Made by a program: the position numbers and the translations under genes
Assembly (NCBI GenBank): GCA_021821945.1
Contig: JAJZTF010000009.1
Coordinates: 1-64,000, forward strand
DNA: 64,000 nucleotides
Reading direction: 5' to 3'
Origin: Pseudomonadota bacterium
GTDB taxonomy: Bacteria; Pseudomonadota; Gammaproteobacteria; Burkholderiales; Gallionellaceae
Shown: in pieces, positions 45,389-58,781 of the stretch
How the letters are laid out: the number at the start of each line of letters is the position of its first letter
Position numbering within the stretch: the first letter of the stretch is position 1
The notes under the pieces: generated by a model
Seen by the model: only the letters and a program-made list of their open reading frames with translations
Databases searched by the model: none
What the model was told of the DNA's origin: nothing

Positions 45389-45937
45389 TTACAGAAAGAA
45401 CGGTATGAATAGTTTTGTTCGAGCCATGTATTGCAAGTACTGGGAGCCGAAATAGTCGATGTTCTCGTTTTCCTCGGCGCGCGAGGCGAGGAGAAGAAAG
45501 AGACTTGCCAGAAATGAAATTCCCGCGGTGAGCCAGGACATTTCCTTGAAGAACAGCCCCCAGTCCAGGAACAAAAGGGAGCTGTAGATGGGATGTCGTA
45601 TGTATCGGTACAAACCATGTGTCACGAGCATAGTGGTCTTCTCGATGAAAAGCAGGGGCGCATCATTCCGGCTTGAGTCGTGCTTGCCGAACAGGAAGAG
45701 GGAAAGATAGCCCGATGAAACCAGAAGCAGGGAAATGTTCATCAGGACCGCGCTTGCGATCTGGTCGGGCGTGCGAACGGCGTTCCCCCATCTGCCGATG
45801 CTCATGACAAGCAGTATCAGCATCAGCTCCCACGCGAAGAACCGGTAGAAGCCATGCGACTTGGGCACGCGCAACGAAGCGCGCGAAAAATAAGCCAGGA
45901 CTGTGCTGCCTGCGATGAAGGTGAGCCATTCGAGCAT
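45389..45937 (-). CDS. Isoprenylcysteine methyltransferase-like (ICMT/PEMT) membrane protein
   Basis: The 182-residue membrane protein has about four or five helices and the ICMT-like signature THGLYRYIRHPIYSSLLFLDW, followed by EENENIDYFGSQYLQYMARTKLFIPF. Such proteins are SAM-dependent membrane methyltransferases of lipid-like substrates. It is convergent with the NYN gene and divergent from the pigment cluster, starting 207 bp from it, so a role in aryl-polyene methylation is possible but unproven. Confidence 0.75.
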   Translation of the reverse strand: MLEWLTFIAGSTVLAYFSRASLRVPKSHGFYRFFAWELMLILLVMSIGRWGNAVRTPDQIASAVLMNISLLLVSSGYLSLFLFGKHDSSRNDAPLLFIEKTTMLVTHGLYRYIRHPIYSSLLFLDWGLFFKEMSWLTAGISFLASLFLLLASRAEENENIDYFGSQYLQYMARTKLFIPFFL

Positions 45938-46067: not shown

Positions 46068-46145
46068 ATGAATATTTTGCAGTATCCCCACTGCGCTCCC
46101 GGGCCGAGCGAACTATCAGTGCTGAACAATGGTGCCGTGACCTGA
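46068..46145 (+). CDS. Possible 25-codon leader ORF coupled to the chorismatase gene
   Basis: The ORF MNILQYPHCAPGPSELSVLN... ends at TGA whose A is the first base of the chorismatase ATG (TGATG). It is too short for the ORF track. It may be a translational-coupling leader, or the frame-shifted remnant of an N-terminal extension, since remembered chorismatases begin about 15-20 residues earlier. No clear ribosome binding site precedes its ATG. Confidence 0.35.
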   Translation: MNILQYPHCAPGPSELSVLNNGAVT

Positions 46146-47128
46146 TGCGCGTGCATGTCGAACATGTGGACGGCAGCTTCGAGCCGGATGGCGATGTACT
46201 GGGCGCGATCTGTTTCTCATCAGGTCTGCTGATGGTGGATCAGACGTTCTGCATGCATGTGCCGATGGCTAGGATGGATAGGCCGGAACCCGCTTGGGAA
46301 GTCTGGCGCTCTGGCGGAGAGATTACGCAGGGGCAATACGGCGATATCCTCTACCGGAAAGGTGAAGACGCGCTGTTCGGTTTCATCGCATTGCCGGAGC
46401 GGCGTTTTGCGTGCAATCTTCAGCAGGCAGCAGAATCGGCCTATCGCCAGATTTTCGAGCTGCTGGACAGGCAGAAGTTTCCCCATCTCTACAGGTTCTG
46501 GAATTACATCCCCCGCATCAATGAGGCCGGCTTTGGCATGGAGCGCTACCAGCAGTTCAACATCGGCAGGCAGGATGCATTCATGGCGCATGGGCGCGAC
46601 GTGCTTGGCAATGCGCCGGCTGCCTGCGCGCTGGGGAGCAGGGAGGGACCACTCTGCATCGCGTTCATCGCCGGAACAGCCCCCTCCTTCAACATAGAAA
46701 ATCCAAGGCAGATCAGCGCGTGCCGCTACCCCCGGCAATACGGGCCGCGCAGCCCGACCTTTTCGCGCGCGAGCCTCGTGCGGTCTGCACAAGGGGATGT
46801 CCTCTTCGTCTCAGGCACGGCGAGCATCGTAGGACACGAGACTCTTCACCGCAACGACGCCGTGATGCAGGCGCGTGAATCCATGGCAAACATAAGGGCC
46901 GTGCTTGAAGAGGCGAACCGCAAAATTCAAGGGCATGCATACGACCTCTCCTCGCTGACCTATCGGGTCTACATCAGAAACCCCTCCGATTATCTGCCCG
47001 TGAAACGAGAGCTGACCGGCATCGCGGGGCAGATGGATGCGGTATATCTCGAGGCAGACATTTGCCGCGCCGACCTGCTCCTGGAAATCGAAGCGGTGTC
47101 GGGGTTGATGAGCCGATCATGCGCCTGA
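46145..47128 (+). CDS. Chorismatase of the FkbO/Hyg5/XanB2 family, predicted 3-hydroxybenzoate-forming
   Basis: Family motifs are FWNYIPRINE, YQQFNIGRQDAF, ENPRQISACRYPRQYGPRSP, LFVSGTASIVGHETLH and the C-terminal DICRADLLLEIEA. Chorismatases cut chorismate to pyruvate plus a dihydrobenzoate or hydroxybenzoate. XanB2 makes 3- and 4-hydroxybenzoate for xanthomonadin. Aligning by eye with remembered FkbO, Gly224 (SGT) and Cys307 (DICR) occupy the positions that are Gly240/Cys327 in the 3-hydroxybenzoate enzyme Hyg5 and Ala244/Ala331 in the hydrolytic FkbO. Glu314 matches the general acid. This gene presumably supplies the aryl starter of the neighbouring polyene cluster. Its stop overlaps the next start by 10 nt. 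Confidence 0.85.
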   Translation: MRVHVEHVDGSFEPDGDVLGAICFSSGLLMVDQTFCMHVPMARMDRPEPAWEVWRSGGEITQGQYGDILYRKGEDALFGFIALPERRFACNLQQAAESAYRQIFELLDRQKFPHLYRFWNYIPRINEAGFGMERYQQFNIGRQDAFMAHGRDVLGNAPAACALGSREGPLCIAFIAGTAPSFNIENPRQISACRYPRQYGPRSPTFSRASLVRSAQGDVLFVSGTASIVGHETLHRNDAVMQARESMANIRAVLEEANRKIQGHAYDLSSLTYRVYIRNPSDYLPVKRELTGIAGQMDAVYLEADICRADLLLEIEAVSGLMSRSCA

Positions 47129-47877
47129 TCCTGCTGGGATACGATTATCTTGTGTTTTACCTCGGGCTGATCTGGCTTGGCGTGCTTTGCCTTTCCTGGA
47201 CGCCGTTCGCGCTGCTTGGCACTTATCTGCTGTCGGAGCGATGGGGAACGGCGCTGGGGCGCTATGCGATCATGGCAGGATTCAGGATATATCTCGCAAG
47301 CCTGCGCCTTGCGGGCCGATGCAGCTTCGATCTCTCCGCTTTGGATGCACTGCGCGGCGAAAAGCCGCTGATCATCGCACCCAATCATCCCTGCCTGCTG
47401 GATGCGGTGATGGTGATCTCCCGGCTGCCGAATGTCGCCTGCGTGATGAAGACCGGCCTGATGAACAACATCTTTCTCGGCGCTCCGGCAAGGTTTGCGC
47501 GCTACATCCGCAATGATCCCGGTCATGTGATGGTGAAAAAGGCGACCCTGGACTTCGAGTCCGGCAGCCATTTGCTGCTGTTCCCAGAGGGAACGCGCAC
47601 CACCTCCTTTCCCGTCAATCCCCTGAAGGGCAGCATAGGGCTGATTGCGCACCATGCGGGGGTGCCGGTGCAGACCGTGCTGATCGAAACCGACAGCCCG
47701 TTTCTTACCAAGGGATGGTCGTTGTTCCGCAAGCCTGAAATGCCGATCCATTACCGCGTGAGTCTGGGGCGTCGCTTCGATCCGCCGGGGAATATCCGGC
47801 AGTTCATGAGCGAGCTCGAAGGCTATTTCGCGCAGGATCTGGTCCATGGGGCGGAAATCCCGATGAAGCCATGCTGA
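47119..47877 (+). CDS. PlsC-like 1-acyl-glycerol-3-phosphate acyltransferase-family protein of the pigment cluster
   Basis: The 252-residue protein has an N-terminal hydrophobic region (about 5-50) and the acyltransferase motifs APNHPCLLDAVMV (HX4D) and LLLFPEGTRTTSFP. Aryl-polyene clusters often encode such enzymes, which probably attach the polyene or a fatty acid to a lipid carrier. I chose the ATG at MRLILLGYDYL, which overlaps the chorismatase stop; the longer track ORF uses antisense-like residues. The next start overlaps its stop by 7 nt. Confidence 0.82.
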   Translation: MRLILLGYDYLVFYLGLIWLGVLCLSWTPFALLGTYLLSERWGTALGRYAIMAGFRIYLASLRLAGRCSFDLSALDALRGEKPLIIAPNHPCLLDAVMVISRLPNVACVMKTGLMNNIFLGAPARFARYIRNDPGHVMVKKATLDFESGSHLLLFPEGTRTTSFPVNPLKGSIGLIAHHAGVPVQTVLIETDSPFLTKGWSLFRKPEMPIHYRVSLGRRFDPPGNIRQFMSELEGYFAQDLVHGAEIPMKPC

Positions 47878-48650
47878 AAACCTCGAATACGCATCTGGTC
47901 CTGATCCCGAGCTACAACCCGGGGGAAAAGGTCTATGAGACGGTGAGGGCCGCGCGGGCGCACTGGTCGCCAGTCTGGGTGGTGGTCGACGGAAGCAGCG
48001 ATGGCACTGCGGAAGGGCTTGCCAGGATGGCCATGGAGGACGAGGGGCTGCGCGTGATCGTGCTGCCCGAAAACGGGGGGAAGGGGGCCGCAGTTCTGCA
48101 CGGCCTTGATCTTGCGTCAAGGATGGGATACAGCCATGTTCTGACGATGGATTCGGACGGCCAGCATCCGGCCGGCCGAATCGCCGAATTCATGGCCGCC
48201 TCGATGGAAAAACCGGATGCGATGATACTGGGGATGCCGGTTTTCGACGAGCATGCTCCCTCCTTGAGGGTCAAGGGGCGGCGCATATCCAACTGGTGGG
48301 CTAATCTCGAGACGCTCTGGTGTGGCATAGGCGATTCGCTTTTCGGCTTTCGCGTCTATCCGGTGGAGCCCTTGCGACGCGTGATGAAGAGACAGCCCTG
48401 GATGCGCCACTTCGATTTCGATCCCGAGGCTGTGGTGCGTCTTTGCTGGCTAGGCGTCATGCCCGTCAACCTGCCCGCTCCCGTGCGCTATTTCAGGAAG
48501 GAGGAGGGGGGCGTTTCGCATTTTCGCTATCTGCGCGACAACCTGCTTCTGACCTGGATGCATGCGAGGCTTTTCCTCGGTTTCCTGATGCGCCTGCCTT
48601 TGCTCGTGGCGCGCAAGGTCAGACAGGGTTCTTCTCCGCGATGGCGTTAA
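47871..48650 (+). CDS. Family 2 glycosyltransferase of the pigment cluster
   Basis: The 259-residue GT-A fold enzyme has LVLIPSYNPGEKVYETV, VVVDGSSDGT and the DxD motif in LTMDSDGQHP. The C-terminal RYLRDNLLLTWMHARLFLGF looks membrane-associated. Aryl-polyene and xanthomonadin loci usually contain a glycosyltransferase for the lipid head or linker. The gene ends inside the convergent dehydratase gene: the last 32 nt overlap on opposite strands. Confidence 0.85.
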   Translation: MLKTSNTHLVLIPSYNPGEKVYETVRAARAHWSPVWVVVDGSSDGTAEGLARMAMEDEGLRVIVLPENGGKGAAVLHGLDLASRMGYSHVLTMDSDGQHPAGRIAEFMAASMEKPDAMILGMPVFDEHAPSLRVKGRRISNWWANLETLWCGIGDSLFGFRVYPVEPLRRVMKRQPWMRHFDFDPEAVVRLCWLGVMPVNLPAPVRYFRKEEGGVSHFRYLRDNLLLTWMHARLFLGFLMRLPLLVARKVRQGSSPRWR

Positions 48651-49074
48651 GCATCACCGCGGCCCGCCCTTCCAGCAGCAGGCGGTCTTCGGCCAGGACT
48701 TCGAACTGGTAGAGCAGGTTGTTTTCGCTGGCGCTGATGCAGCTTGCTGCAACGGCAAGTTCGGCGGCAATGTCGTCCAGCCTCGGCACATGCAGCCTCG
48801 TGTCGCGCACGCTCACGAGATAGCCCGCGCGAGTTGGCTTGCCGGATGAGAGCAGCGCGCCATGCACGGCCATGGCCTGTGCCGCATATTCTATCCCGCA
48901 GACGCTGCCCAGTCTGCCGCGCGAGCGCAAAGGATGGTCCGGGTTGCGGTGGCTGCCTGCCAGGCACACGATTCTTTCCGGGTCCCAGTATTCGACGCGG
49001 TCAAGCAAGCACATGCTGCCACGGTGAGGGATGTGCGCGGCGATCCAGTCGTGGTCAAGCCGGGATGGAATCAT
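48619..49074 (-). CDS. Hotdog-fold 3-hydroxyacyl-ACP dehydratase (ApeP-like)
   Basis: The 151-residue thioester dehydratase has the FabZ/FabA-like N-terminal AAHIPHRGSMCLLDRV (catalytic His) and CGIEYAAQAMAVHG (catalytic Glu on the hotdog helix). It is probably one of the dehydratases that create the conjugated double bonds of the polyene. It is the last gene of the minus-strand operon, coupled to the KS/CLF gene by a 4-nt overlap, and it overlaps the convergent glycosyltransferase gene. Confidence 0.82.
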   Translation of the reverse strand: MIPSRLDHDWIAAHIPHRGSMCLLDRVEYWDPERIVCLAGSHRNPDHPLRSRGRLGSVCGIEYAAQAMAVHGALLSSGKPTRAGYLVSVRDTRLHVPRLDDIAAELAVAASCISASENNLLYQFEVLAEDRLLLEGRAAVMLNAIAEKNPV

Positions 49075-49862
49075 GGGTGTGATATCTGCAGGGCAAGCCG
49101 GGTCGCATCGAGATAATCCAGCACCACGCGAGTGTCTTTGCGCATCGCGATCGCCTGCAGCATCGGTAATCCCCTCGCCGCAGGGATGGAGGCTCTGAGC
49201 GCTTCGAATTGGCCTTCCATGCTGTCCGCCTTGTCTTCTGTGAGCTCAATGGAAATCCTGGCAAGCGCGCTCGCGCTTTTTTCCGGCGAAAAAACGAATG
49301 CGAGGCCGAATGCCTCGGGAATGGGCCGCGCCTTGAACAGGGGTTCCGGGTATGGGGTGTCGCATGCAAGCATCACGGTGCGCGTGTTGTCCACGACCAC
49401 CTGGGCGACCGCTTCGAGCAGCGCCGCGCAGAAGCTGGCATCGAAGGCGCACAGCACGGACGAGTTTTTCATCGAACCGGTTGCGATGCCCCAGTATCCG
49501 GCAGCCGTGTTGTGCACGGAATTGTGAAAGCGTGTGGGCGAAATCTGGCGGTCGCTCGCTGCCAGCATCTCGCAGATCGCGTGGCAGTTTTCCCCGTCTG
49601 CGCCCGATGAAGAAAAAACGGTCGGCAGATCGGCGGGGTTGAGCCCCGCCGCTTCTATCGCCTCGAGGCCCACAGCGAGTGCCAGCTTGACCAATGCGCC
49701 GCTGCGCCTGCGCTCTGCAGCAGGCAGCGATGAGGGGGGAGGCAGCACGGTCTTTTGCGGCTGGTATGAGGATTCCCCGCGGAGCATATTTTCGCCTGCC
49801 TTCCAGCCGGCAAGGCCCGGTCCCAGCAATCCGATGCCTTCGATGTATGCGGCAAGTTTCAT
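49071..49862 (-). CDS. Ketosynthase chain-length-factor-like protein (short, ApeC-like)
   Basis: The 263-residue product corresponds to a ketoacyl-synthase N-terminal-type domain (IEGIGLLGPG, LPTVFSSSGADGENCHAI, FHNSVHNTAAGYWGIA). The region where active ketosynthases have a catalytic Cys (A/TACSSS) reads LCAFDASFCAALLEA, and the C-terminal His-containing half is absent. In studied aryl-polyene systems a protein of this kind (ApeC) pairs with an active ketosynthase as a chain-length factor. The next gene upstream is the complete ketosynthase, overlapping by 4 nt, which fits a heterodimer. Confidence 0.8.
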   Translation of the reverse strand: MKLAAYIEGIGLLGPGLAGWKAGENMLRGESSYQPQKTVLPPPSSLPAAERRRSGALVKLALAVGLEAIEAAGLNPADLPTVFSSSGADGENCHAICEMLAASDRQISPTRFHNSVHNTAAGYWGIATGSMKNSSVLCAFDASFCAALLEAVAQVVVDNTRTVMLACDTPYPEPLFKARPIPEAFGLAFVFSPEKSASALARISIELTEDKADSMEGQFEALRASIPAARGLPMLQAIAMRKDTRVVLDYLDATRLALQISHP

Positions 49863-51046
49863 GAAGAGATTCCGAAGATGAGGCTGCAGTTCGTGCCGCC
49901 AAAGCCGAAAGAGTTGCTGAGCACGCGCCTGGGCCTCTCTTCGCGGTTTTCAAGCAGATAGTCGAGCTGCAGGCTGGGGTCGGTCTGCCTGGTGTTGATT
50001 CCAGCCGGCATGAAGCCATGCTTCAAGGCGAGTGCCGAGATCAAGGCTTCCATGCCGCCTGCGGCGCCCAGCGTGTGGCCGGTAGCGCCCTTGGTCGAGC
50101 TGCAGGCGGTGTTCCTTCCGAAGAGCGCCTGAACGGCAATGCCTTCCGCCGCATCGTTGCTGGGCGTCGCAGTCCCGTGCAGATTGATGTAATCGATGTC
50201 CGACGGGGCAAGGCCCGCCATATGCAGCGCATCCTGCATCGCGATTTTCGCGCCCAGTCCTTCCGGATGCGGCGATGACATGTGGTAGGCATCGCTCGAT
50301 TCTCCGATGCCAAGAAGCACGATGTCATCCTCATGCTGCGGGGATTTTTCGAGCAGGGCGAATGCGGCCGCCTCCCCGATCGAAAGTCCGTTACGTTTTG
50401 CGTCATAAGGCCGGCATGGCTCGCTGGACAGGAGCTCAAGGGAGTTGAAGCCATAAAGCGTGGTCAGACAAAGCGAGTCAACGCCTCCCACCAGGGCGGC
50501 ATCGATAAGGCCAGCCTCCATCATGCGCCGCGCCGAGCCGAAGACCTTTGCGCTCGAGGAGCATGCGGAGGAGACTGCTGCGGCAGGACCTGCAAGATTG
50601 AAGCACCTGCGAACGAAGTCTGCGACGGAATAGGTGTTGTGCGTCGTGCGATAGTTGAAGTCCGCTGGCAGTGCGCCGGTTTCGGCATTCCGCCTGCGGT
50701 AGGCGAGTTCGGTCTGAAAAATGCCCGAGGTGCTGGTGCCGATGAACACGCCTATGCGGTGCCTGCCGTATTTTTCGGCAGCATTGCGCACGGCAAGCTG
50801 GAAGTCGTCCTGCAGGAGGCCTAGCCATGCGAGCCGGTTGTTCCTGCAATCGTATTCGGCAAGAGGCGGCGGAAGCTTCACTTCCTCAAGGCCTGTCACT
50901 TCGCCCACGAAGGTCTCGAGCTCGACGGTGTCGAACCGGCAGGGCGCGAGGCCTGAATGGAGGCCACGCAGCGCGGAAAGCGTCTGGTCAAGCCCGCGTC
51001 CTATGCTGCTGGTCGCGGTGTAATGGGTCAGCCAAAGCGGATTCAA
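49859..51046 (-). CDS. 3-oxoacyl-ACP synthase, FabF-type (ApeO-like)
   Basis: The 395-residue ketosynthase has a complete Cys-His-His triad: SSACSSSAKVFG (Cys), NLHGTATPSNDAAEG (His) and KGATGHTLGAAGG (Lys/His). It should perform the elongating condensations of the aryl polyene together with the downstream chain-length-factor-like subunit. The start is TTG (MNPLWLTHYTATSS); no ATG is in frame nearby. It lies 36 nt after the PAP2 gene, the only larger gap in the distal operon. Confidence 0.9.
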   Translation of the reverse strand: MNPLWLTHYTATSSIGRGLDQTLSALRGLHSGLAPCRFDTVELETFVGEVTGLEEVKLPPPLAEYDCRNNRLAWLGLLQDDFQLAVRNAAEKYGRHRIGVFIGTSTSGIFQTELAYRRRNAETGALPADFNYRTTHNTYSVADFVRRCFNLAGPAAAVSSACSSSAKVFGSARRMMEAGLIDAALVGGVDSLCLTTLYGFNSLELLSSEPCRPYDAKRNGLSIGEAAAFALLEKSPQHEDDIVLLGIGESSDAYHMSSPHPEGLGAKIAMQDALHMAGLAPSDIDYINLHGTATPSNDAAEGIAVQALFGRNTACSSTKGATGHTLGAAGGMEALISALALKHGFMPAGINTRQTDPSLQLDYLLENREERPRRVLSNSFGFGGTNCSLIFGISS

Positions 51047-51082: not shown

Positions 51083-51745
51083 TTATATTCCCGAACGGGA
51101 TTCTTGGGACGACAGCCTGATGGAAAGCCAGGCCGAAAAGATGCCCAATGCGGCGCCCGTTGCGACATCGATGGCGACATGCTGGCGCATGGCTAGCGTC
51201 GAATAGATGATCGCGATGCACCACGCCCGGTTCAGCATGGATATCCAGCGCGGCGTGCCAATGCGGTTTAACAGACGGTTCAGCCAGATGCCCGAAAATA
51301 CCGCGGTCACGACATGCAGGGAGGGACAGGCATTGCCGGATGCATCGATGTTCTTCAAGAAATCCACATCGGGATATTTCGCCCAGTCTATGCCGGAAGG
51401 GGGCACGGCTGTCGGCCAGAAGTAGAAGATGATCAATGAAAGGAGGCAGGTTGCGGCGATGCTTGCGCCATAGAAATAAAGCTCCCTTCTCGTTTCAATA
51501 AGCGCAGGCGGCAGGGAAACATAAATCCAGAGCGAGGCATAGACGGGCAGCGACCAGGGAGAAAATCCGATCGCGCGATCGAGCCAGAGTACCGGCATGA
51601 TGGCGGGTTCATGGGCAGGATTTCTCAGCAGATAAAAATAGGCGGAGAAGAACAGGGCGATGAAAATCGTGGTGCCGGAAGCCTTGAGCAGGGCATGCTT
51701 CATGACCGCCGATGCAATGCGGCTTTGCCAGGTTCGTGCATTCAT
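51083..51745 (-). CDS. PAP2-superfamily membrane protein (PAP2_3 / inositolphosphotransferase-like) in the pigment operon
   Basis: The 220-residue protein has about six helices and the PAP2 signatures CPSLHVVTA and MRQHVAIDVATGAALG (R-x-H-x3-D). PSLH-type PAP2 proteins include phosphatases and phosphoinositol-type head-group transferases. It overlaps the polysaccharide-deacetylase gene by 4 nt, so it is genuinely part of the operon. It may handle a phospholipid or undecaprenyl-phosphate step when the polyene is linked to its lipid. Such a gene is not part of the standard aryl-polyene set I know. Confidence 0.78.
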   Translation of the reverse strand: MNARTWQSRIASAVMKHALLKASGTTIFIALFFSAYFYLLRNPAHEPAIMPVLWLDRAIGFSPWSLPVYASLWIYVSLPPALIETRRELYFYGASIAATCLLSLIIFYFWPTAVPPSGIDWAKYPDVDFLKNIDASGNACPSLHVVTAVFSGIWLNRLLNRIGTPRWISMLNRAWCIAIIYSTLAMRQHVAIDVATGAALGIFSAWLSIRLSSQESRSGI

Positions 51746-52536
51746 GAGAGCGCCTCCCTTAGCGTGATGAAGCGAAAGCCGGAATTCCTGGCCTCTGAGA
51801 GTATGATGGGGAGGGCTTCGAGTATCACGGGGCGCCTATCCCGGGTTCGCGCGGAATTGCCGTCGTGCAGCAGCAGGATCGTGCCTTTTTTAAGCCCTCC
51901 AAGCAGTTTTTTTGCGACGCGTTCGACGTCGCCGGTTCTGGTGTCATAAGCGCGTACCGACCAGCTTGCAAGGCGCAGACCGAGCCTCGAGAGCGCAGGG
52001 TCGAGGAAGGGATTGCGCAGGCCTGCAGGGGCGCGGAAGAACAGGGGAGCCATTCCCGTGATTCCGGCGAGCGTGGTCTGGGCCTCCTCGAGTTCCTTGA
52101 TGATTCCGCGATAGCCAAGCAGCGAAAAGCGATGGAGGTGGTGCTGGCTGTGATTCTCCACCGCATGTCCGCGGGCGACGATCTCGCGGCAGAGATCGGG
52201 ATGGCGGGCCGCCTTTTCTCCCGTGCAGAAGAAGGTTGCCCTGACTGCATAAAGGTCAAGGATGTCGAGCACTTCTGGCGTCACCTCGGGGTCAGGGCCG
52301 TCGTCTATGGTGAGCGCGATCTCTTCCCGCCCGGCAGGCAGCCTGGTCCAGTTGGGGCCCAGCCAGTCCAGGCGGGGCAGCAGACCTGCCAGAGTCAGCA
52401 GCGCATGATCGGCAAGGAAGATCGCGAGCGCGATGCGCCAGTGTGCCGGCTGAAGGACGAGCAGGACAACGAGGGCTCCGTGCAGGTAGAGGCTCGCGCG
52501 TATCAGGGGTGAGGGTTTCCAGCGGGCGTCAGTCAT
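51742..52536 (-). CDS. Membrane-anchored polysaccharide deacetylase (NodB homology domain)
   Basis: The 264-residue protein has two N-terminal hydrophobic segments (about 15-55) and a CE4/NodB domain. The domain shows IALTIDDGPDPEVTPEVLD (catalytic and metal Asp), ENHSQHHLHRF (metal His), PLFFRAPAGLRNP and the late catalytic GTILLLHDGN. CE4 enzymes remove N-acetyl groups from sugars. Here it could deacetylate a sugar added by the cluster's glycosyltransferase. The start MTDARWKPS overlaps the exporter stop by 4 nt; the long track ORF upstream is spurious. Confidence 0.82.
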   Translation of the reverse strand: MTDARWKPSPLIRASLYLHGALVVLLVLQPAHWRIALAIFLADHALLTLAGLLPRLDWLGPNWTRLPAGREEIALTIDDGPDPEVTPEVLDILDLYAVRATFFCTGEKAARHPDLCREIVARGHAVENHSQHHLHRFSLLGYRGIIKELEEAQTTLAGITGMAPLFFRAPAGLRNPFLDPALSRLGLRLASWSVRAYDTRTGDVERVAKKLLGGLKKGTILLLHDGNSARTRDRRPVILEALPIILSEARNSGFRFITLREALS

Positions 52537-54830
52537 GGCTTTGCGAAAATGGCTGAGTAGACGAGCGCGAGGATGACGCCGGGGGCAACCGTTGCGCCTA
52601 TCGCCTGCAGTATCGAGACGCCTGAGAATGCAAGCAACCCGAATCCTGCAACCGCGGTCAGGTTGGCAAACAGCATCGACACCAGCGTCCTGGGGGTGCA
52701 TTGGGAAATCCCTGACTCCCCGCGATCGAAGAAGAGCGCATAGTTGGAGCCCACTGCTACGACCAGAAGCAGGCCCACGAGGTGCATGATGATCAGCTGC
52801 TGGTGAAAAAATGCAAGGGCTGCGGTCACGGTGATCACGGATGCTGCAAGGGGAAGGACAATGTAGAAAACGCGCACCCAGGAGCGCAATGCGATGAGCA
52901 GCAGCAGGACGATCAGCGACGTCCCGGATGCTGACAGCATGATGGCTTCATGAAGGTAACCCGAATAAAGATGATCGGACTCCGCCTTCATGTCGATGAG
53001 GAGCACGTCATTCAATCCGGAAAGCGCATTCCTGATGGCCAGTGCATCGATTTCCTTGTCCTCAGGAGCCTTAAGCGGAAGCAATGCGCTCGTGCGCCCG
53101 GCATGCCGGATGAGCAGGGCATCCAGTGCCATGGACATCGACGTGCGATTAAGATCGGCTCTTTGCAAAAGAGACTGGTGTTTTGCGGCCCCTACGTCGG
53201 CCAGAAAGGGGGCGAAGCGTTCTGCCTTGACGGGCAGGCCTTCTACCGCCTGTGTAAGGCGGGATGCCAGCGTTGCCGGATCGGGCAGGCTGTCCTGGCG
53301 CATGCGCTGTGTCCTGAGGCTGGGCAGGTAGCGGCTTGGACTCTCAAATCCCGAAATTGCGCCGAGCCCGACCTGCCTTTGCAGTATTTCTGAAGCGCGC
53401 TCAGCCCTCTGCAATGCGAACTCCTGATCCTTGCCGGTGACGACCACCATGTAGCGCACGTCGGGTGCGCCGATGTCCGAGCGCAGCGATGCATCGAGCG
53501 CGACATCCGCCTGCGATACCGGACTTAGCGAGGATATCTTCTCGTTCCAGAGATCGTTTCGGTGCATGAAAAGCACGATGCAGGCGGCAAGGAGCAGCAT
53601 GGATGCGGGCCATTTCGCCTTTCCTGCGAGCCTGACCATGCGTGAGAGCATGTCGCCGATGGCAGATACGTCGCGGATGCGAAATCCGGAAGGAGTCAGG
53701 GAAGGCAAGACGAAACGGGTTGTCAGGGCGGCAGCGACGAGGCCCGAGATCGCATAGAGTCCCAGCTGTGCCAGGCCCGGAAATCCCGAGAACATCAGTG
53801 TTGCAAAACCGGCAATCGAAGTCAGCACGCCCAGGCGAACGGTGGGCCAGAAGCGTCTTGTCCATTCCTCCCTGTCAGGCCCGGATTGCACGAAGAGGTA
53901 GATCGAGTAATCCACGGCCTCGCCTATGAGCGCCGTGCCAAAGCCCAGCGTGATGCCGTGCACCGTGCCAAAAGCCAGGCTGACCGCCGCGATGCCGGCA
54001 AGCGCGCCGCTGATGATGGGGAGGAAACTTAAAACCAGCGCGACGAATGAGCGGTAGACCAGCAGCAGCAGAATGGCGATGAGGGATATGCTGATGGCGG
54101 AGAGCAGGCTCACTTCGCTCTTTATGGTTTCGCGCGAGTTGACCGAGAAAACCCCGGGGCCCGCCATCAATAGCCTCATGCCGGAAACATGCGCCTGATC
54201 GAATGCCTGGCGTATTGCCGCCATCGCGCGCTGTTGCGCATCGGTATCCGAACCCGATGCGCGGGTCTCGACCATCATCAGCGCTCTCGTGCCGTCTCTG
54301 GATGCCCATGCGCCATCCAGCATCATGGGGCTGCTTTCCATCTGGTCAAGCAGCCTTGCCATCTCGCCTGTCGCATCGCGCGGCAGCAGCGACTTGAAGA
54401 GCAGCCCCGCTGGCGATGCGATGAGGTCTATGCTTTCGCTCAATGCTTCGTGCAGCCCCGGGACTTCAAAGCGGGAAGGCGTGACCGCAGGGCTTAGAAG
54501 ATAACGGTGGTCGAAAAGATAGGCTCTGTCGCGTTCCCCGTTGATGTCTTCGCCATTGTTCACGCTTGCAAATTGCGGGTCCGCCCGCAGTTTTCCTGCG
54601 ATCAGCCTGGACAGCGCTGCGCGCCTTTCCGCGCTGTCCCCTTCTATGCCGACTAAAATCAGGCGGGAAGCCAGTCCGTCTTGGATCTGTTCGAGCAGAA
54701 CCTGCTGGGCTGGGGTCGGGTTGCGCGGCAGGAAGGCGGAAAGGTCGGCGGTGAACCGGCTGTGTATGATCGTGAAGACTGAGGCTGTGATGAAGGCAAG
54801 CCACAGGAGTAATCCCTTCTGGATTTTCAC
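52533..54830 (-). CDS. MMPL/RND-family exporter of the pigment cluster
   Basis: The 765-residue exporter has two MMPL halves, each with one helix, a periplasmic loop and five helices (about 1-400 and 405-765). Visible segments are GFGTALIGEAVDYSIYLFVQ and VVAVGSNYALFFDRGES. It is expected to move the polyene lipid towards the outer membrane with the LolA-like protein. I chose a GTG start (VKIQKGLLLWLAF), because GTGA forms a 4-nt overlap with the LolA-like stop and places the first helix at the N-terminus. The track ORF starts 51 codons earlier inside the previous gene. Confidence 0.88.
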   Translation of the reverse strand: MKIQKGLLLWLAFITASVFTIIHSRFTADLSAFLPRNPTPAQQVLLEQIQDGLASRLILVGIEGDSAERRAALSRLIAGKLRADPQFASVNNGEDINGERDRAYLFDHRYLLSPAVTPSRFEVPGLHEALSESIDLIASPAGLLFKSLLPRDATGEMARLLDQMESSPMMLDGAWASRDGTRALMMVETRASGSDTDAQQRAMAAIRQAFDQAHVSGMRLLMAGPGVFSVNSRETIKSEVSLLSAISISLIAILLLLVYRSFVALVLSFLPIISGALAGIAAVSLAFGTVHGITLGFGTALIGEAVDYSIYLFVQSGPDREEWTRRFWPTVRLGVLTSIAGFATLMFSGFPGLAQLGLYAISGLVAAALTTRFVLPSLTPSGFRIRDVSAIGDMLSRMVRLAGKAKWPASMLLLAACIVLFMHRNDLWNEKISSLSPVSQADVALDASLRSDIGAPDVRYMVVVTGKDQEFALQRAERASEILQRQVGLGAISGFESPSRYLPSLRTQRMRQDSLPDPATLASRLTQAVEGLPVKAERFAPFLADVGAAKHQSLLQRADLNRTSMSMALDALLIRHAGRTSALLPLKAPEDKEIDALAIRNALSGLNDVLLIDMKAESDHLYSGYLHEAIMLSASGTSLIVLLLLIALRSWVRVFYIVLPLAASVITVTAALAFFHQQLIIMHLVGLLLVVAVGSNYALFFDRGESGISQCTPRTLVSMLFANLTAVAGFGLLAFSGVSILQAIGATVAPGVILALVYSAIFAKP

Positions 54831-55405
54831 GGCTTTGTCAGTCTCTCGATGGTCATGACTGAGCTGTCGCCATCCGCCTGGAGGATTTCGATGCTGCTTA
54901 GCGCATCCCTTTCCCCTTTGATGCGGATTTGTCTCGCCACCTTCTGCATTTTCGGTTCCACGGGCAAAAGGATCAGCATCCATTGGTCGGGCGTGCCCGT
55001 GAGGCTGGCCCTGTAGTTTTTCTCGAGCGCATCCCGATCTCCGGAAAGCGTGCCGCGTATGCTGTCGATGAAGGCTGCGATTTCCGGATATTTCTGAAGT
55101 TGCAGGCGATGCATTTGCCCGTTGCGCTCCATGATGAGGCTGTCCTTGTCGACTGTCAGCGATTCAGGCCTGGGCTTCAGCGTGCGCTTTTCAAGATGAC
55201 TGGGCGCGACATAGTACAGTTCTCCGGAGGATTCCACGGGCTTGTCCAGCATCGCGATGGACTTGATTTCGGTGAATCTTGCATGGTCGCTTCGCACAGC
55301 CGCAAGCGCATGCATCAGCGAGTCGAGATTCCATTCCGATGCGCGGGTTAGCTCAGGCGCCATCGCCAGGGCCGCAAGAATCAGGAAGATGGCGGTCTTC
55401 ATCAT
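54827..55405 (-). CDS. LolA-like periplasmic carrier protein of the pigment cluster
   Basis: The 192-residue protein has a signal peptide (ending near LTRASEW) and LolA-like beta-rich sequence (HARFTEIKSIAMLDKPVESSGELYYVAPSHLEKRTL). Aryl-polyene clusters encode a LolA-related protein next to the MMPL exporter; it probably ferries the lipid-linked pigment across the periplasm. It has 4-nt overlaps on both sides. Confidence 0.82.
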   Translation of the reverse strand: MMKTAIFLILAALAMAPELTRASEWNLDSLMHALAAVRSDHARFTEIKSIAMLDKPVESSGELYYVAPSHLEKRTLKPRPESLTVDKDSLIMERNGQMHRLQLQKYPEIAAFIDSIRGTLSGDRDALEKNYRASLTGTPDQWMLILLPVEPKMQKVARQIRIKGERDALSSIEILQADGDSSVMTIERLTKP

Positions 55406-56310
55406 TCTTGCGGATCCTGCCAGAAGTCGAAAAAATTGAACCAGTTGTAGGGCGCGCGCTTGCAGTACCGGTCGAGCAGTCCGGCATAGCGAGAGATGGC
55501 GTCCTTTATCGCCTGATCCCTTTCGTCTGGCTGGACCGCAGAAAAGTCTGCGAGGCGATCGAAATGAATCGCATACCGGTTTCCGCCAAGATACAGCCCG
55601 GTCATGAAGATCACGGGGCGCTTTAGGAGTGCGGCCATGCGGAAGGGGCCGGTGGGGAGCATTGCCGTCCGGCCAAGGATTTCGACCGGGAGCCTTGTTT
55701 CATTCCCGGGCGTGCGGTCTGCCAGCACGCCCACTGCATAGCCATCCTTGAGCCTGGCTTCGACCTTGAGCATCGCATCGAGATTGCCAAGCCCGATGAT
55801 CTCCTGATCGGATTGCGGGTTGATCGACAAAAGCGCTTCATTGATCTTGCGCGCGTTGGCTTCATGCATCAGCATCGCGACGCGCAGCCCGGCGTTCTGC
55901 TTTCCGACCGCACTGATCGCCTCGAAGCTGCCAAGATGCGCGCCCATCATGAAAAGGCCCACGCCTTGTTCGAGAAGATGCTCGCCGTGGATTTCAAATT
56001 CAAACGGGTCGAAGCGGCGATTGATCAGGTACGCCCGGTCGTGGATGGTGGATGCAAAACAGAAGAAATGCCTGTAGAGGTCCGTCCACCGAACCTGGCG
56101 CCCCAGCGCCCGTTCGAGATAGGAGCGGGATGAGAGGCGGCTTTCTGGCGAAGAAAGCAAAAAATATGCGGTGATGGGGTGGAGCGCGATGCGGGTAGCC
56201 TTCCTGCCGAACTTGAGCGAGCACCAGGTCATGAAGCGCAGCAGGGGAAGGCTGCCGCGTTCTGGCGTTGTGGCCCAGCTCGACTGGTCTGCGGAAGGGT
56301 GGGTGGTCAT
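55402..56310 (-). CDS. LpxL/HtrB-like lysophospholipid acyltransferase of the pigment cluster
   Basis: The 302-residue protein resembles lipid A late acyltransferases (LpxL/LpxM). It has the HX4E catalytic motif in GAHLGSFEAISAVG, GYAVGVLADRTPGN and PTGPFRMAALLKRPVI. In aryl-polyene clusters this enzyme probably transfers the polyene or a fatty acyl group to the lipid carrier. It has 4-nt overlaps with both neighbours. Confidence 0.88.
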   Translation of the reverse strand: MTTHPSADQSSWATTPERGSLPLLRFMTWCSLKFGRKATRIALHPITAYFLLSSPESRLSSRSYLERALGRQVRWTDLYRHFFCFASTIHDRAYLINRRFDPFEFEIHGEHLLEQGVGLFMMGAHLGSFEAISAVGKQNAGLRVAMLMHEANARKINEALLSINPQSDQEIIGLGNLDAMLKVEARLKDGYAVGVLADRTPGNETRLPVEILGRTAMLPTGPFRMAALLKRPVIFMTGLYLGGNRYAIHFDRLADFSAVQPDERDQAIKDAISRYAGLLDRYCKRAPYNWFNFFDFWQDPQE

Positions 56311-57893
56311 GATTTTTGCGAGAGGCTGCCGCTGGCTATTTTTCTTGAGCCTGATGTGATGTCGAAGAGCATCCTGCCATCGGGCAGCGTTTTATGCTGA
56401 AAATGCAGCCGGTCTCCAGGTCCTGCGGGGCTTGTGAACTTGACCGAACTGATTTCATAGCGATCGGGCGATATGCCGTCCGCGATGCGCATTAGCGCTT
56501 CTTCCAGCAGCACGACACCGGGAAGCACGGGATGCCCGGGGAAGTGTCCGGAAAAGGCGGGATGATTCTTCGGGACTGTCCAGGTGTGGCGATCCCCAAA
56601 CAGCGCCTTCAGCGCGGAATGGGGCAGCTTGCCCGTGCTGTTGCGCGGCAGCGCATCGACAAACAGCAATGGCCTTGGCAGGAAGACCGGATCGAGATGT
56701 TCCCTGAGCGCGGCAAACAGCGTTTCCGGTTGCACCCCGGGGGCTACGACGGCTGCAGCAAGCCTCGTGACATCGCTCGTCTCTTCCGGCATGTGGAATG
56801 CGCCGTCCAGGACGCCTGGCAGGGAGTTCAACAGATGGTTGAGTCCCGACAGGGAGTGGCGCTTGCCAGCAATGTTGATCATGTCTGCCATGCGTCCGTG
56901 CAGCAGAAAAAGATCTTCTGAAAGGGGCTCTATCACATCGTTCATCACGACGGGCGGATCGATATGCGGGCCGGATGCACTCAATCCGTTGTTCTCATTG
57001 ACCCATCTGATGCCGGGGAAAAGCTGCCATGCGGGTCCGCTGGTCGGCCTTCTGCTTGCGATCTGCCCTGTTTCTGTGGAACCGTAGATTTCAGTCAGTG
57101 GACAATTCAAGTTTGCCTCGATTTCCCGGGCGAGCTCAACGGCAAGCGGGGCTGTCGCGGACATCACATGGTGCAGCGCTGGCACAACGAGTCCCGAGTT
57201 CAGCAGGGTGCGCAGATGCAATGGGGAGGAGATCAGCACGCGGGGGGCGGGCACGCGGGACAGGACATCGCAGATGTCGGCCGGAAAGAAGGGCTGCGCA
57301 TGACTCAATGCAAATCCGTTGCACCATGCCATCAGCAGGGTCGATTCGAAGCCGTACATGTGCTGAGGCGGCACGGTTGCGATCAGAACCGAGCCTTCGG
57401 GGGCGCCGAGTCGCTGCGCTTCCGCGCGTACGCTCTCTGCCAGCGCTCCCCATGTTTTCCGATGGGGTTGGGGGATGCCGGTCGAGCCGGAGGTGAAAAC
57501 GATGGCGATCTCTTGTTCGCTACGGATTTGCGGAATCGCGATCTCGTCAGCCGGGGCTTCCAGCATGGCCGGGTAATCGAGTCTCGACAGGCCTTCCGAG
57601 GATTGCCGGTTGTCCGTGAGGCAAAATACGTCGGGCGCAAACTCCCTGACCTGGCGGATGACCTCGGGGGTCTGGGTCGGGGGAAGCAGGCTGGTTTTGC
57701 CGCTCAATATGGCGGCCGCCAGTCCCACGCTGAAACGGTAGCGGTCGCTGCAAAGATTGAGCATGTGCCTGCCTTCGGGCAGCTGCCCGGCGAGCTGATG
57801 CGCCTCTGAAAGGAATTGCTGCCTCGTAACCGGCCCATCGGCGCAAAAGGCGACGATGCTTCCGGCGTGAGGATGGGATATCAGCGGGCTCAT
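56307..57893 (-). CDS. Acyl/aryl-ACP ligase fused to a FabZ-like dehydratase (ApeH-ApeI fusion)
   Basis: The 528-residue protein has an adenylating ligase domain (about 1-430) with the P-loop FTSGSTGIPQPHRKTW, the segment EIYGSTETGQIA and the C-terminal catalytic lysine in LPRNSTGKLPHSAL. A hotdog dehydratase of about 90 residues follows (NHPAFSGHFPGHPVLPGVVLLEEALMRI). In the E. coli aryl-polyene cluster these functions are separate proteins (ApeH, ApeI), so a fusion would couple activation of 3-hydroxybenzoate with a dehydration step. There is no frameshift between the domains. It overlaps both neighbours by 4 nt. Confidence 0.85.
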   Translation of the reverse strand: MSPLISHPHAGSIVAFCADGPVTRQQFLSEAHQLAGQLPEGRHMLNLCSDRYRFSVGLAAAILSGKTSLLPPTQTPEVIRQVREFAPDVFCLTDNRQSSEGLSRLDYPAMLEAPADEIAIPQIRSEQEIAIVFTSGSTGIPQPHRKTWGALAESVRAEAQRLGAPEGSVLIATVPPQHMYGFESTLLMAWCNGFALSHAQPFFPADICDVLSRVPAPRVLISSPLHLRTLLNSGLVVPALHHVMSATAPLAVELAREIEANLNCPLTEIYGSTETGQIASRRPTSGPAWQLFPGIRWVNENNGLSASGPHIDPPVVMNDVIEPLSEDLFLLHGRMADMINIAGKRHSLSGLNHLLNSLPGVLDGAFHMPEETSDVTRLAAAVVAPGVQPETLFAALREHLDPVFLPRPLLFVDALPRNSTGKLPHSALKALFGDRHTWTVPKNHPAFSGHFPGHPVLPGVVLLEEALMRIADGISPDRYEISSVKFTSPAGPGDRLHFQHKTLPDGRMLFDITSGSRKIASGSLSQKS

Positions 57894-58504
57894 GAACGGG
57901 CCTTTCTGAACGCCCTCAATTCATCCAGGATGCGCGCATCCTGTGCGTCGGGCAACATGCTTTTGCGCACCCGGTGTTCGACGAGGAACATCAGCGCGAT
58001 CAGGGGGAGCGTCAGGAAGTTGGCAAACACCGACCAGACGGAAAGCGGAGCAAGAAAGTAGAGGAGGGCTGAAACCATGGCCATGAAACCGAAGAACGCT
58101 GTCCAGGCGATGGTCGCGTTGCGTGCGTAAGTTTCATGCTGTCTGGTCAGGGGGGCATGAGTTGCTTCGGCGAAACGCACGCAGAGCGGCTTTTGCCCGC
58201 CTGCCAGCGTGCGGCCGAAGGCAAAAAACAGGGCGAGCTGCATGCCCATGTCCTGCAGCCAGTTTATCAGGCCGAAGTGGGATGCGATCGCATGCCATTG
58301 GCTGTATGCGATCAGGCATGAGATTGCCAGCGCCGGGAGCATCAGGAAGCGCATCGAGGAATTCCAGGCCATGAGGAAGGCGAAAAAAGCCAGCGGTGCA
58401 AGCGCTGCAAGCGTGCCGAGGTTGCCGTCCTTGGACATCGTGTTGGTGTAATGCGCAAGCAGCGCATAGCCGGCTATTGCGATTGCAATGCCTGCCGGTC
58501 GCAT
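57890..58504 (-). CDS. COG4648-like integral membrane protein of the pigment cluster (ApeG-like)
   Basis: The 204-residue protein has about six helices (MRPAGIAIAIAGYALLAHY, LGTLAALAPLAFFAFLMAW, FLMLPALAISCLIAYSQW and others). A conserved-looking loop KPLCVRFAEATHAPLTRQHETYARN precedes the last helices. Genes of this kind accompany the ACP and ligase in aryl-polyene clusters; molecular function is unknown. I chose the ATG at 58504 just after the ACP stop rather than the longer track start inside the ACP gene. Confidence 0.8.
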   Translation of the reverse strand: MRPAGIAIAIAGYALLAHYTNTMSKDGNLGTLAALAPLAFFAFLMAWNSSMRFLMLPALAISCLIAYSQWHAIASHFGLINWLQDMGMQLALFFAFGRTLAGGQKPLCVRFAEATHAPLTRQHETYARNATIAWTAFFGFMAMVSALLYFLAPLSVWSVFANFLTLPLIALMFLVEHRVRKSMLPDAQDARILDELRAFRKARS

Positions 58505-58508
58505 GGCT

Positions 58509-58781
58509 TCAAAGCGTCCTGTGCGCTGCAATATGGGTGCAAAGGCTGCGCAGCGACCCGAAGATCTGCTGGTTGTCCGCGCCATCGCTGCGCAGCTGCA
58601 ATCCGTAACGCTTGGAGAGGGTCAGCGAGATTTCGAGTATGTCTATGGAATCAAGTCCCAGCCCGTCGCCATAAAGCGGGGCGTCCGGGGAGATTTGATC
58701 TGCGGTGATTTCGAGATTCAGGCATTCGACCATCAATTGGGCGACTTCCTTCTGTAACGCGCTGTTTTGATTATCTTGCAT
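58509..58781 (-). CDS. Acyl carrier protein of the pigment cluster
   Basis: The 90-residue ACP has the phosphopantetheine attachment motif DGLGLDSIDILEIS with the modified Ser at residue 45 and the usual four-helix pattern. It is the first gene of the eleven-gene operon. Studied aryl-polyene systems have two ACPs (ApeE, ApeF); only this one is found here. No strong ribosome binding site is seen before its ATG. Confidence 0.92.
   Translation of the reverse strand: MQDNQNSALQKEVAQLMVECLNLEITADQISPDAPLYGDGLGLDSIDILEISLTLSKRYGLQLRSDGADNQQIFGSLRSLCTHIAAHRTL

Follow-up and report, generated by a model that had tools for sequence, protein, structure and literature searches.

Organization of the locus

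The stretch of DNA analyzed here (the window) spans 64,000 nucleotides and carries a pigment gene cluster with two converging parts. On the minus strand, a single dense operon is transcribed from an acyl carrier protein gene to a dehydratase-like gene, in the order listed below; three plus-strand genes converge on it.

58509-58781, minus: acyl carrier protein, at the start of the operon
57890-58504, minus: small membrane protein in the ArcU/ApeG position; no Pfam match
56307-57893, minus: AMP-ligase fused to a FabA/FabZ-like dehydratase domain (ArcT/ApeH-like)
55402-56310, minus: lipid A-type acyltransferase-like protein
54827-55405, minus: LolA-like carrier (PF19574; NCBIfam LolA2_flexi below cut-off)
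52533-54830, minus: MMPL/RND-type exporter (ApeM/ArcP-like); start inferred (GTG at 54830, overlapping the LolA stop)
51742-52536, minus: CE4 (NodB-fold) de-N-acetylase, 264 aa, with an N-terminal two-helix membrane hairpin; counterpart of Azoarcus ArcN by position and type
51083-51745, minus: PAP2-superfamily integral membrane protein, 220 aa, with an Aur1-like motif set (PSLH; STX5HX3D)
49859-51046, minus: ketosynthase (PRK09185 family, above cut-off)
49071-49862, minus: chain-length-factor-like protein with an N-terminal ketosynthase domain
48619-49074, minus: dehydratase-like protein at the operon end, assigned by position and homology to the dehydratase gene of other clusters; no Pfam or NCBIfam match
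47871-48650, plus: GT2 glycosyltransferase, closest among solved structures to ArnC (Und-P-Ara4FN transferase)
47119-47877, plus: PlsC-type acyltransferase; start inferred (ATG at 47119)
46145-47128, plus: XanB2/FkbO-Hyg5-type chorismatase (hydroxybenzoate starter)

The cluster thus contains an aryl-polyene/xanthomonadin-type gene set (ketosynthase, chain-length-factor-like protein, dehydratase, acyl carrier protein, AMP-ligase, LolA, MMPL exporter, and acyltransferases), in which the dehydratase is counted by homology and position only. A dedicated ketoreductase is absent from the operon, and the cluster is therefore provisionally filed as aryl-polyene-type by its remaining genes. The best reductase elsewhere in the same genome is only 39% identical to the cluster-type ketoreductase, and none was detected in two other loci (L073 and L074) either. 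Unlike in most relatives, no ketoreductase or UbiE-like methyltransferase follows the dehydratase-like gene, which overlaps the GT2 gene tail to tail (48619-48650). An ICMT/PEMT-type methyltransferase-like gene lies near the chorismatase gene (45389-45937), as it does beside the clusters of L073 and L074. Next to the chorismatase gene, several related clusters have a FAD-dependent halogenase-like gene, so named from visual inspection of its N-terminal sequence (e.g., L164:8418-9752 and L169:16854-18197); no such gene was seen in the window's cluster.

The original prediction held that 4-nt overlaps connect the PAP2 gene with the CE4 gene and the pair with the exporter gene, and rechecking of coordinates, strand, and overlaps found this to be correct. 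The PAP2 start codon (51745) and the CE4 stop (51742) overlap, as do the CE4 start (52536) and the exporter stop (52533); the shared letters are ATGA at both junctions, and AAGGGAGG stands upstream of the PAP2 ATG. Because further junctions in the operon overlap as well, overlap alone indicates cotranscription without proving a shared function.

The CE4 deacetylase and the GT2 partner

The deacetylase matches PF01522 (1.3e-27) and has the catalytic Asp, the Asp-His-His metal triad, the RxP and LxH motifs, and the NodB fold of CE4 enzymes. Residues D78/D79, H129/H133, R168, and H224 show no variation across 17 homologues from pigment clusters, and a two-helix hairpin (residues 10 to 51) forms the anchor, which bears out the earlier description of intact Asp and His motifs and a membrane anchor. 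In an AlphaFold model (pLDDT 92.5), the NodB domain sits behind this hairpin. The nearest structural matches of the model are acetylxylan esterase and peptidoglycan deacetylases; ArnD ranks lower. Since the protein's scores fall far short of the cut-off for every named NCBIfam deacetylase family, homology does not give its substrate; we consider a lipid-linked N-acetylhexosamine a fairly probable one.

The GT2 enzyme (259 aa) has its best PDB matches in ArnC, the undecaprenyl-phosphate Ara4FN transferase (E = 2.5e-5), which is consistent with a lipid-phosphate acceptor. Searches of the cluster with Pfam and NCBIfam identified no second glycosyltransferase able to move a sugar off undecaprenyl phosphate. 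No ArnT-type glycosyltransferase appeared among the cluster genes with a match in these databases, the membrane protein at 57890-58504 being matchless.

The PAP2 protein as a possible head-group transferase

The PAP2 protein matches PF01569 as its best Pfam family (3.1e-10) and also PF14378 (PAP2_3; 4.6e-8), and its model (pLDDT 90) suggests six transmembrane helices. The His-His-Asp residues of superfamily motifs C2 and C3 are present as H144, H189, and D193, which are invariant in both the A1 alignment and a 38-sequence alignment; by the positive-inside rule, they would lie near the periplasmic side. The PSLH motif noted previously occupies residues 141 to 144.

Two motifs of the canonical PAP2 phosphatases (PgpB and LpxE type), C1 (KX6RP) and the C3 form SRX5HX3D, are absent from 16/16 and 80/80 PAP2 homologues, and both are kept by two other PAP2 proteins of the same genome. 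The C3 region of the window's protein instead reads STX5HX3D, and an S/A-T/A form occurs in 16/16 and 79/80 homologues. PSLH together with STX5HX3D is the arrangement found in yeast Aur1. A search of the PDB with a PAP2 profile returned Aur1 as the only plausible match (E = 0.0049), the two others being TMEM106B (E = 0.61). The top three Foldseek matches, all weak (E of 1.1e-3 to 6.1e-3; TM scores of 0.47 to 0.58), are SMSr and two Aur1-type structures, followed by PGP phosphatase and LpxE. Because C1 and the C3 arginine are missing and the protein bears some resemblance to the Aur1/SMSr head-group transferases, it is probably not an ordinary phosphatase. Motifs and predicted fold favor a head-group transferase, an assignment that we place slightly short of an even chance.

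Conservation and coevolution of the pair

The genus of the window was surveyed in 37 genomes, 13 with the pigment exporter and 24 without it. The pigment-type CE4 gene was found in 13/13 exporter-positive and 0/24 exporter-negative genomes, and the pigment-type PAP2 gene was found in 9/13 and 0/24, respectively (Fisher p = 3e-10 for CE4 and 6e-6 for PAP2; these naive values are uncorrected for shared ancestry and thus optimistic). Several close relatives or clusters hold CE4 without PAP2, and PAP2 is the less universal of the two across clusters. Clusters that lack PAP2, or both genes, must build their lipids by another route.

When the PAP2 alignment was used to search GTDB genomes more widely, over 400 relatives were recovered; the top 80, a sample biased toward close relatives of the window's protein, were kept. 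At 69 of these 80 loci, PAP2 has a same-strand CE4 gene nearby, and at 68 the distance is within 150 nt; the usual order in the latter is exporter-CE4-PAP2-ketosynthase. The adjacency of exporter, CE4, and PAP2 spans Gallionella, Thiobacillus, Polaromonas, Rhodoferax, Sulfuriferula, and other genera. It had been predicted that PAP2 and CE4 are not accidental neighbors, and the pair's adjacency in 68 of 80 homologous loci, rather than the overlaps, which are insufficient by themselves, upholds this. The check proposed at that time, a search for the same pair in related clusters, found it there, clearly contrary to the outcome that had been named as refuting (absence from all related clusters), and the assignment of both genes to the pigment cluster is supported.

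Gene order can change while the association persists. The CE4 and PAP2 genes are convergent with the GT2 gene in one genome (G019) and divergent from each other in two (G026 and G030), and the pair is likewise rearranged but together in three other families. A genome from another family of the same class (G115) carries the same block. Two further genomes from other families (G218 and G329) have PAP2 before the ketosynthase genes and a CE4-like gene (~31% identity) after them, and in two more (G210 and G322), PAP2 adjoins a CE4 protein fused to a methyltransferase-like domain. Such fusions, 534 aa long with a C-terminal SAM methyltransferase-like domain and adjoining PAP2, are encoded at L055:9644-11248 and L059:8905-10509, and a separate methyltransferase gene follows CE4 in other clusters. 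The fusion could reflect methylation of a deacetylated head group.

No CE4 gene was seen near PAP2 in 11 of the 80 loci, but 10 of those 11 genomes carry one elsewhere, for a total of 79/80; the genome of L110 has none at all. In all nine of these genomes that were inspected, CE4 sits among aryl-polyene cluster genes. PAP2 is unlinked in four Acidithiobacillus genomes and two others, each of which has an aryl-polyene cluster with CE4. In Acidithiobacillus, PAP2 stands alone (L081, L086, L097, and L098), the pigment cluster with CE4 lies elsewhere (L163 to L166), and a check of the PAP2 neighbors for clues to another function revealed only unrelated genes.

Distance matrices were compared for the window and for 37 other loci with six genes. 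Distances for PAP2, CE4, and the exporter correlate at 0.80 to 0.89 with one another and at only 0.50 to 0.58 with those for the ketosynthase, although the ketosynthase gene adjoins PAP2. The acyltransferase and GT2 form another correlated pair (0.83). These correlations, which ignore rates and shared transfer tracts, are suggestive of an export and head-group module.

A proposed route to the pigment head group

CE4 and PAP2 very probably belong to the pigment pathway, and most likely they act ahead of export to complete a charged sugar-phosphate end on the pigment lipid. We propose, as a reading that we consider as apt to be right as wrong, that they form the head-group and export submodule of a betaproteobacterial aryl-polyene (xanthomonadin-type) lipid pathway. 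On the cytoplasmic side, the GT2 enzyme (ArnC/DPM-type) would use a UDP-sugar to attach N-acetylhexosamine to a lipid phosphate, either undecaprenyl phosphate or a phosphatidate-like pigment lipid, and the membrane-anchored CE4 would strip the N-acetyl group to leave a cationic amino sugar. The Aur1-like PAP2 protein, whose active site would face the periplasm, may then transfer the phospho-amino-sugar to a hydroxyl of a polyene-bearing glycerolipid; this would be a phosphoester exchange with a His intermediate, hydrolysis being less likely. Finally, MMPL and LolA would deliver the completed lipid to the outer membrane. Gene identities, intact catalytic residues in CE4, PAP2 motifs unlike those of phosphatases, and conserved linkage and co-occurrence are established here; we infer the substrates, the order of steps, and the choice of transfer over hydrolysis. 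A glycosyltransferase-then-deacetylase route to an amino-sugar lipid has, by analogy, experimental precedents in HexSDF and GpgSD. The earlier suggestion that an N-acetylated sugar at the lipid end is transferred and then deacetylated is supported in part. A Xenorhabdus polyene lipid reportedly bears a galactosamine-phosphate-glycerol head group, which would fit the proposed pathway, although the papers searched do not give that head group.

Several observations count against this model, including the weakness of the structural matches of PAP2. The aryl-polyene clusters of E. coli have neither gene, so a polyene lipid can be made without CE4 or PAP2, and close relatives of the window have CE4 without PAP2. 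Transfer from an undecaprenyl-phosphate sugar would yield free undecaprenol that has to be phosphorylated again. If the N terminus of the two-helix hairpin is inside, CE4 would stay in the cytoplasm, opposite the PAP2 active site. Also, Azoarcus, which bears arcN, has been reported to esterify its polyene to a dialkylresorcinol rather than to a glycolipid.

The main rival casts PAP2 as a lipid phosphatase, acting on a phosphatidate-like pigment precursor or recycling undecaprenyl pyrophosphate, while CE4 deacetylates a sugar as in Lgm- or Arn-like pathways. Many PAP2 proteins are phosphatases, PF01569 is the best Pfam family, PGP phosphatase and LpxE appear among the weaker fold matches, and the lgm genes of Bordetella, where a phosphatase adjoins an undecaprenyl-phosphate-sugar deacetylase, may offer a parallel. 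Against this, C1 and the C3 arginine are missing in 96/96 sequences yet kept by the genome's other PAP2 proteins, and the genome already encodes these two canonical, phosphatase-type proteins. The motifs thus disfavor an ordinary phosphatase, and we regard this rival, although retained, as rather unlikely.

Other alternatives detach one or both genes from the pigment. That CE4 is a peptidoglycan or exopolysaccharide deacetylase present in the operon by happenstance would suit its nearest solved structures and NCBIfam neighbors, which are peptidoglycan and chitin deacetylases and acetylxylan esterase; however, it falls far under every curated cut-off of those families, occurs within the genus only alongside the pigment exporter, and has distances that track those of the exporter, all of which make a generic peptidoglycan enzyme quite improbable. 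Chance proximity is rejected by the conserved adjacency and co-occurrence. A pair of passengers without a pigment role, persisting because operons are inherited and entire clusters are transferred horizontally, gains some plausibility because most loci share one gene order, so that many of the 80 are not independent; yet CE4 and PAP2 stay associated where genes have been rearranged, clusters split, or the two genes unlinked, and their catalytic residues do not vary, which leaves this explanation very improbable.

The preferred reading, that CE4 and PAP2 complete the head group for export, gives two concrete assembly steps in betaproteobacteria that can be tested by single-gene experiments. The pair is conserved in the yellow-membrane-pigment cluster of many betaproteobacteria, and it raises the possibility that head-group transfer of the Aur1/SMS type, a reaction of eukaryotic sphingolipids, also takes place in making a pigment lipid in bacteria. 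More tentatively, and in our judgment as a rather unlikely extension, a bacterial Aur1-type phospho-head-group transferase that had not been assigned before might install amino-sugar-phosphate on aryl-polyene lipids, with the dedicated CE4 and exporter evolving together with PAP2 as one module.

Comparison with known systems

ArnC-ArnD, LgmABCD, and FlmF2-NaxD are pathways that use undecaprenyl-phosphate amino sugars. In the ArnC-ArnD pathway, as in the window, an ArnC-like GT2 enzyme is paired with a NodB-fold de-N-acylase, and ArnD is among the CE4 fold matches; unlike that pathway, the window's cluster has no identified ArnT-type glycosyltransferase among its genes with Pfam or NCBIfam matches. 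The operons HexSDF of Clostridioides difficile and GpgSDF of Pseudomonas aeruginosa, which have experimental support for making amino-sugar membrane lipids, likewise unite glycosyltransferase, deacetylase, and translocation (flippase) functions. They differ in glycosyltransferase family (GpgS is GT4 and HexS is of the MGDG-synthase type) and have no PAP2 partner and no polyketide chain; HexD is described as a polysaccharide deacetylase, whereas GpgD is COG3233. The Aur1 and SMSr transferases are the top fold matches of the window's PAP2 protein and share its His-His-Asp residues, and Aur1 shares PSLH and STX5HX3D too, but they are eukaryotic enzymes with ceramide substrates, and overall similarity is weak.

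The pair had also been described as lying outside the standard aryl-polyene set. This holds for the ape cluster of E. coli CFT073, whose gene table has neither a deacetylase nor a PAP2 protein; the two systems share an acyl carrier protein, acyl-ACP synthetase, LolA-like protein and RND exporter, ketosynthases, dehydratases, and acyltransferase and glycosyltransferase functions, although ApeJ is listed as glycosyltransferase/acyltransferase and the window has two separate genes (PMC8253772). It does not hold for the deacetylase in Azoarcus sp. BH72, where arcN was listed in 2014 as a polysaccharide deacetylase of the arc cluster (arcM-arcX and arcA-arcL; arcuflavin) (PMC3949708). There, arcN lies near the exporter gene arcP, lolA, and genes for an acyltransferase, AMP-ligase, and acyl carrier protein, and a second locus encodes a XanB2-type chorismatase, a glycosyltransferase, and an acyltransferase. 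In the available portion of that report, no arcN mutant or assay is described, the neighboring arcO is only "hypothetical," no PAP2 protein is named, and a methyltransferase gene, arcM, is present that the window lacks (PMC3949708).

A 217-aa protein of unknown function is encoded between exporter and CE4 at L168:10024-10677, the arcO position in Azoarcus. Among the papers searched, none contains both "xanthomonadin" and "PAP2." The CE4 gene of such a cluster was already listed as arcN, and PAP2 is the newer part of the pair.
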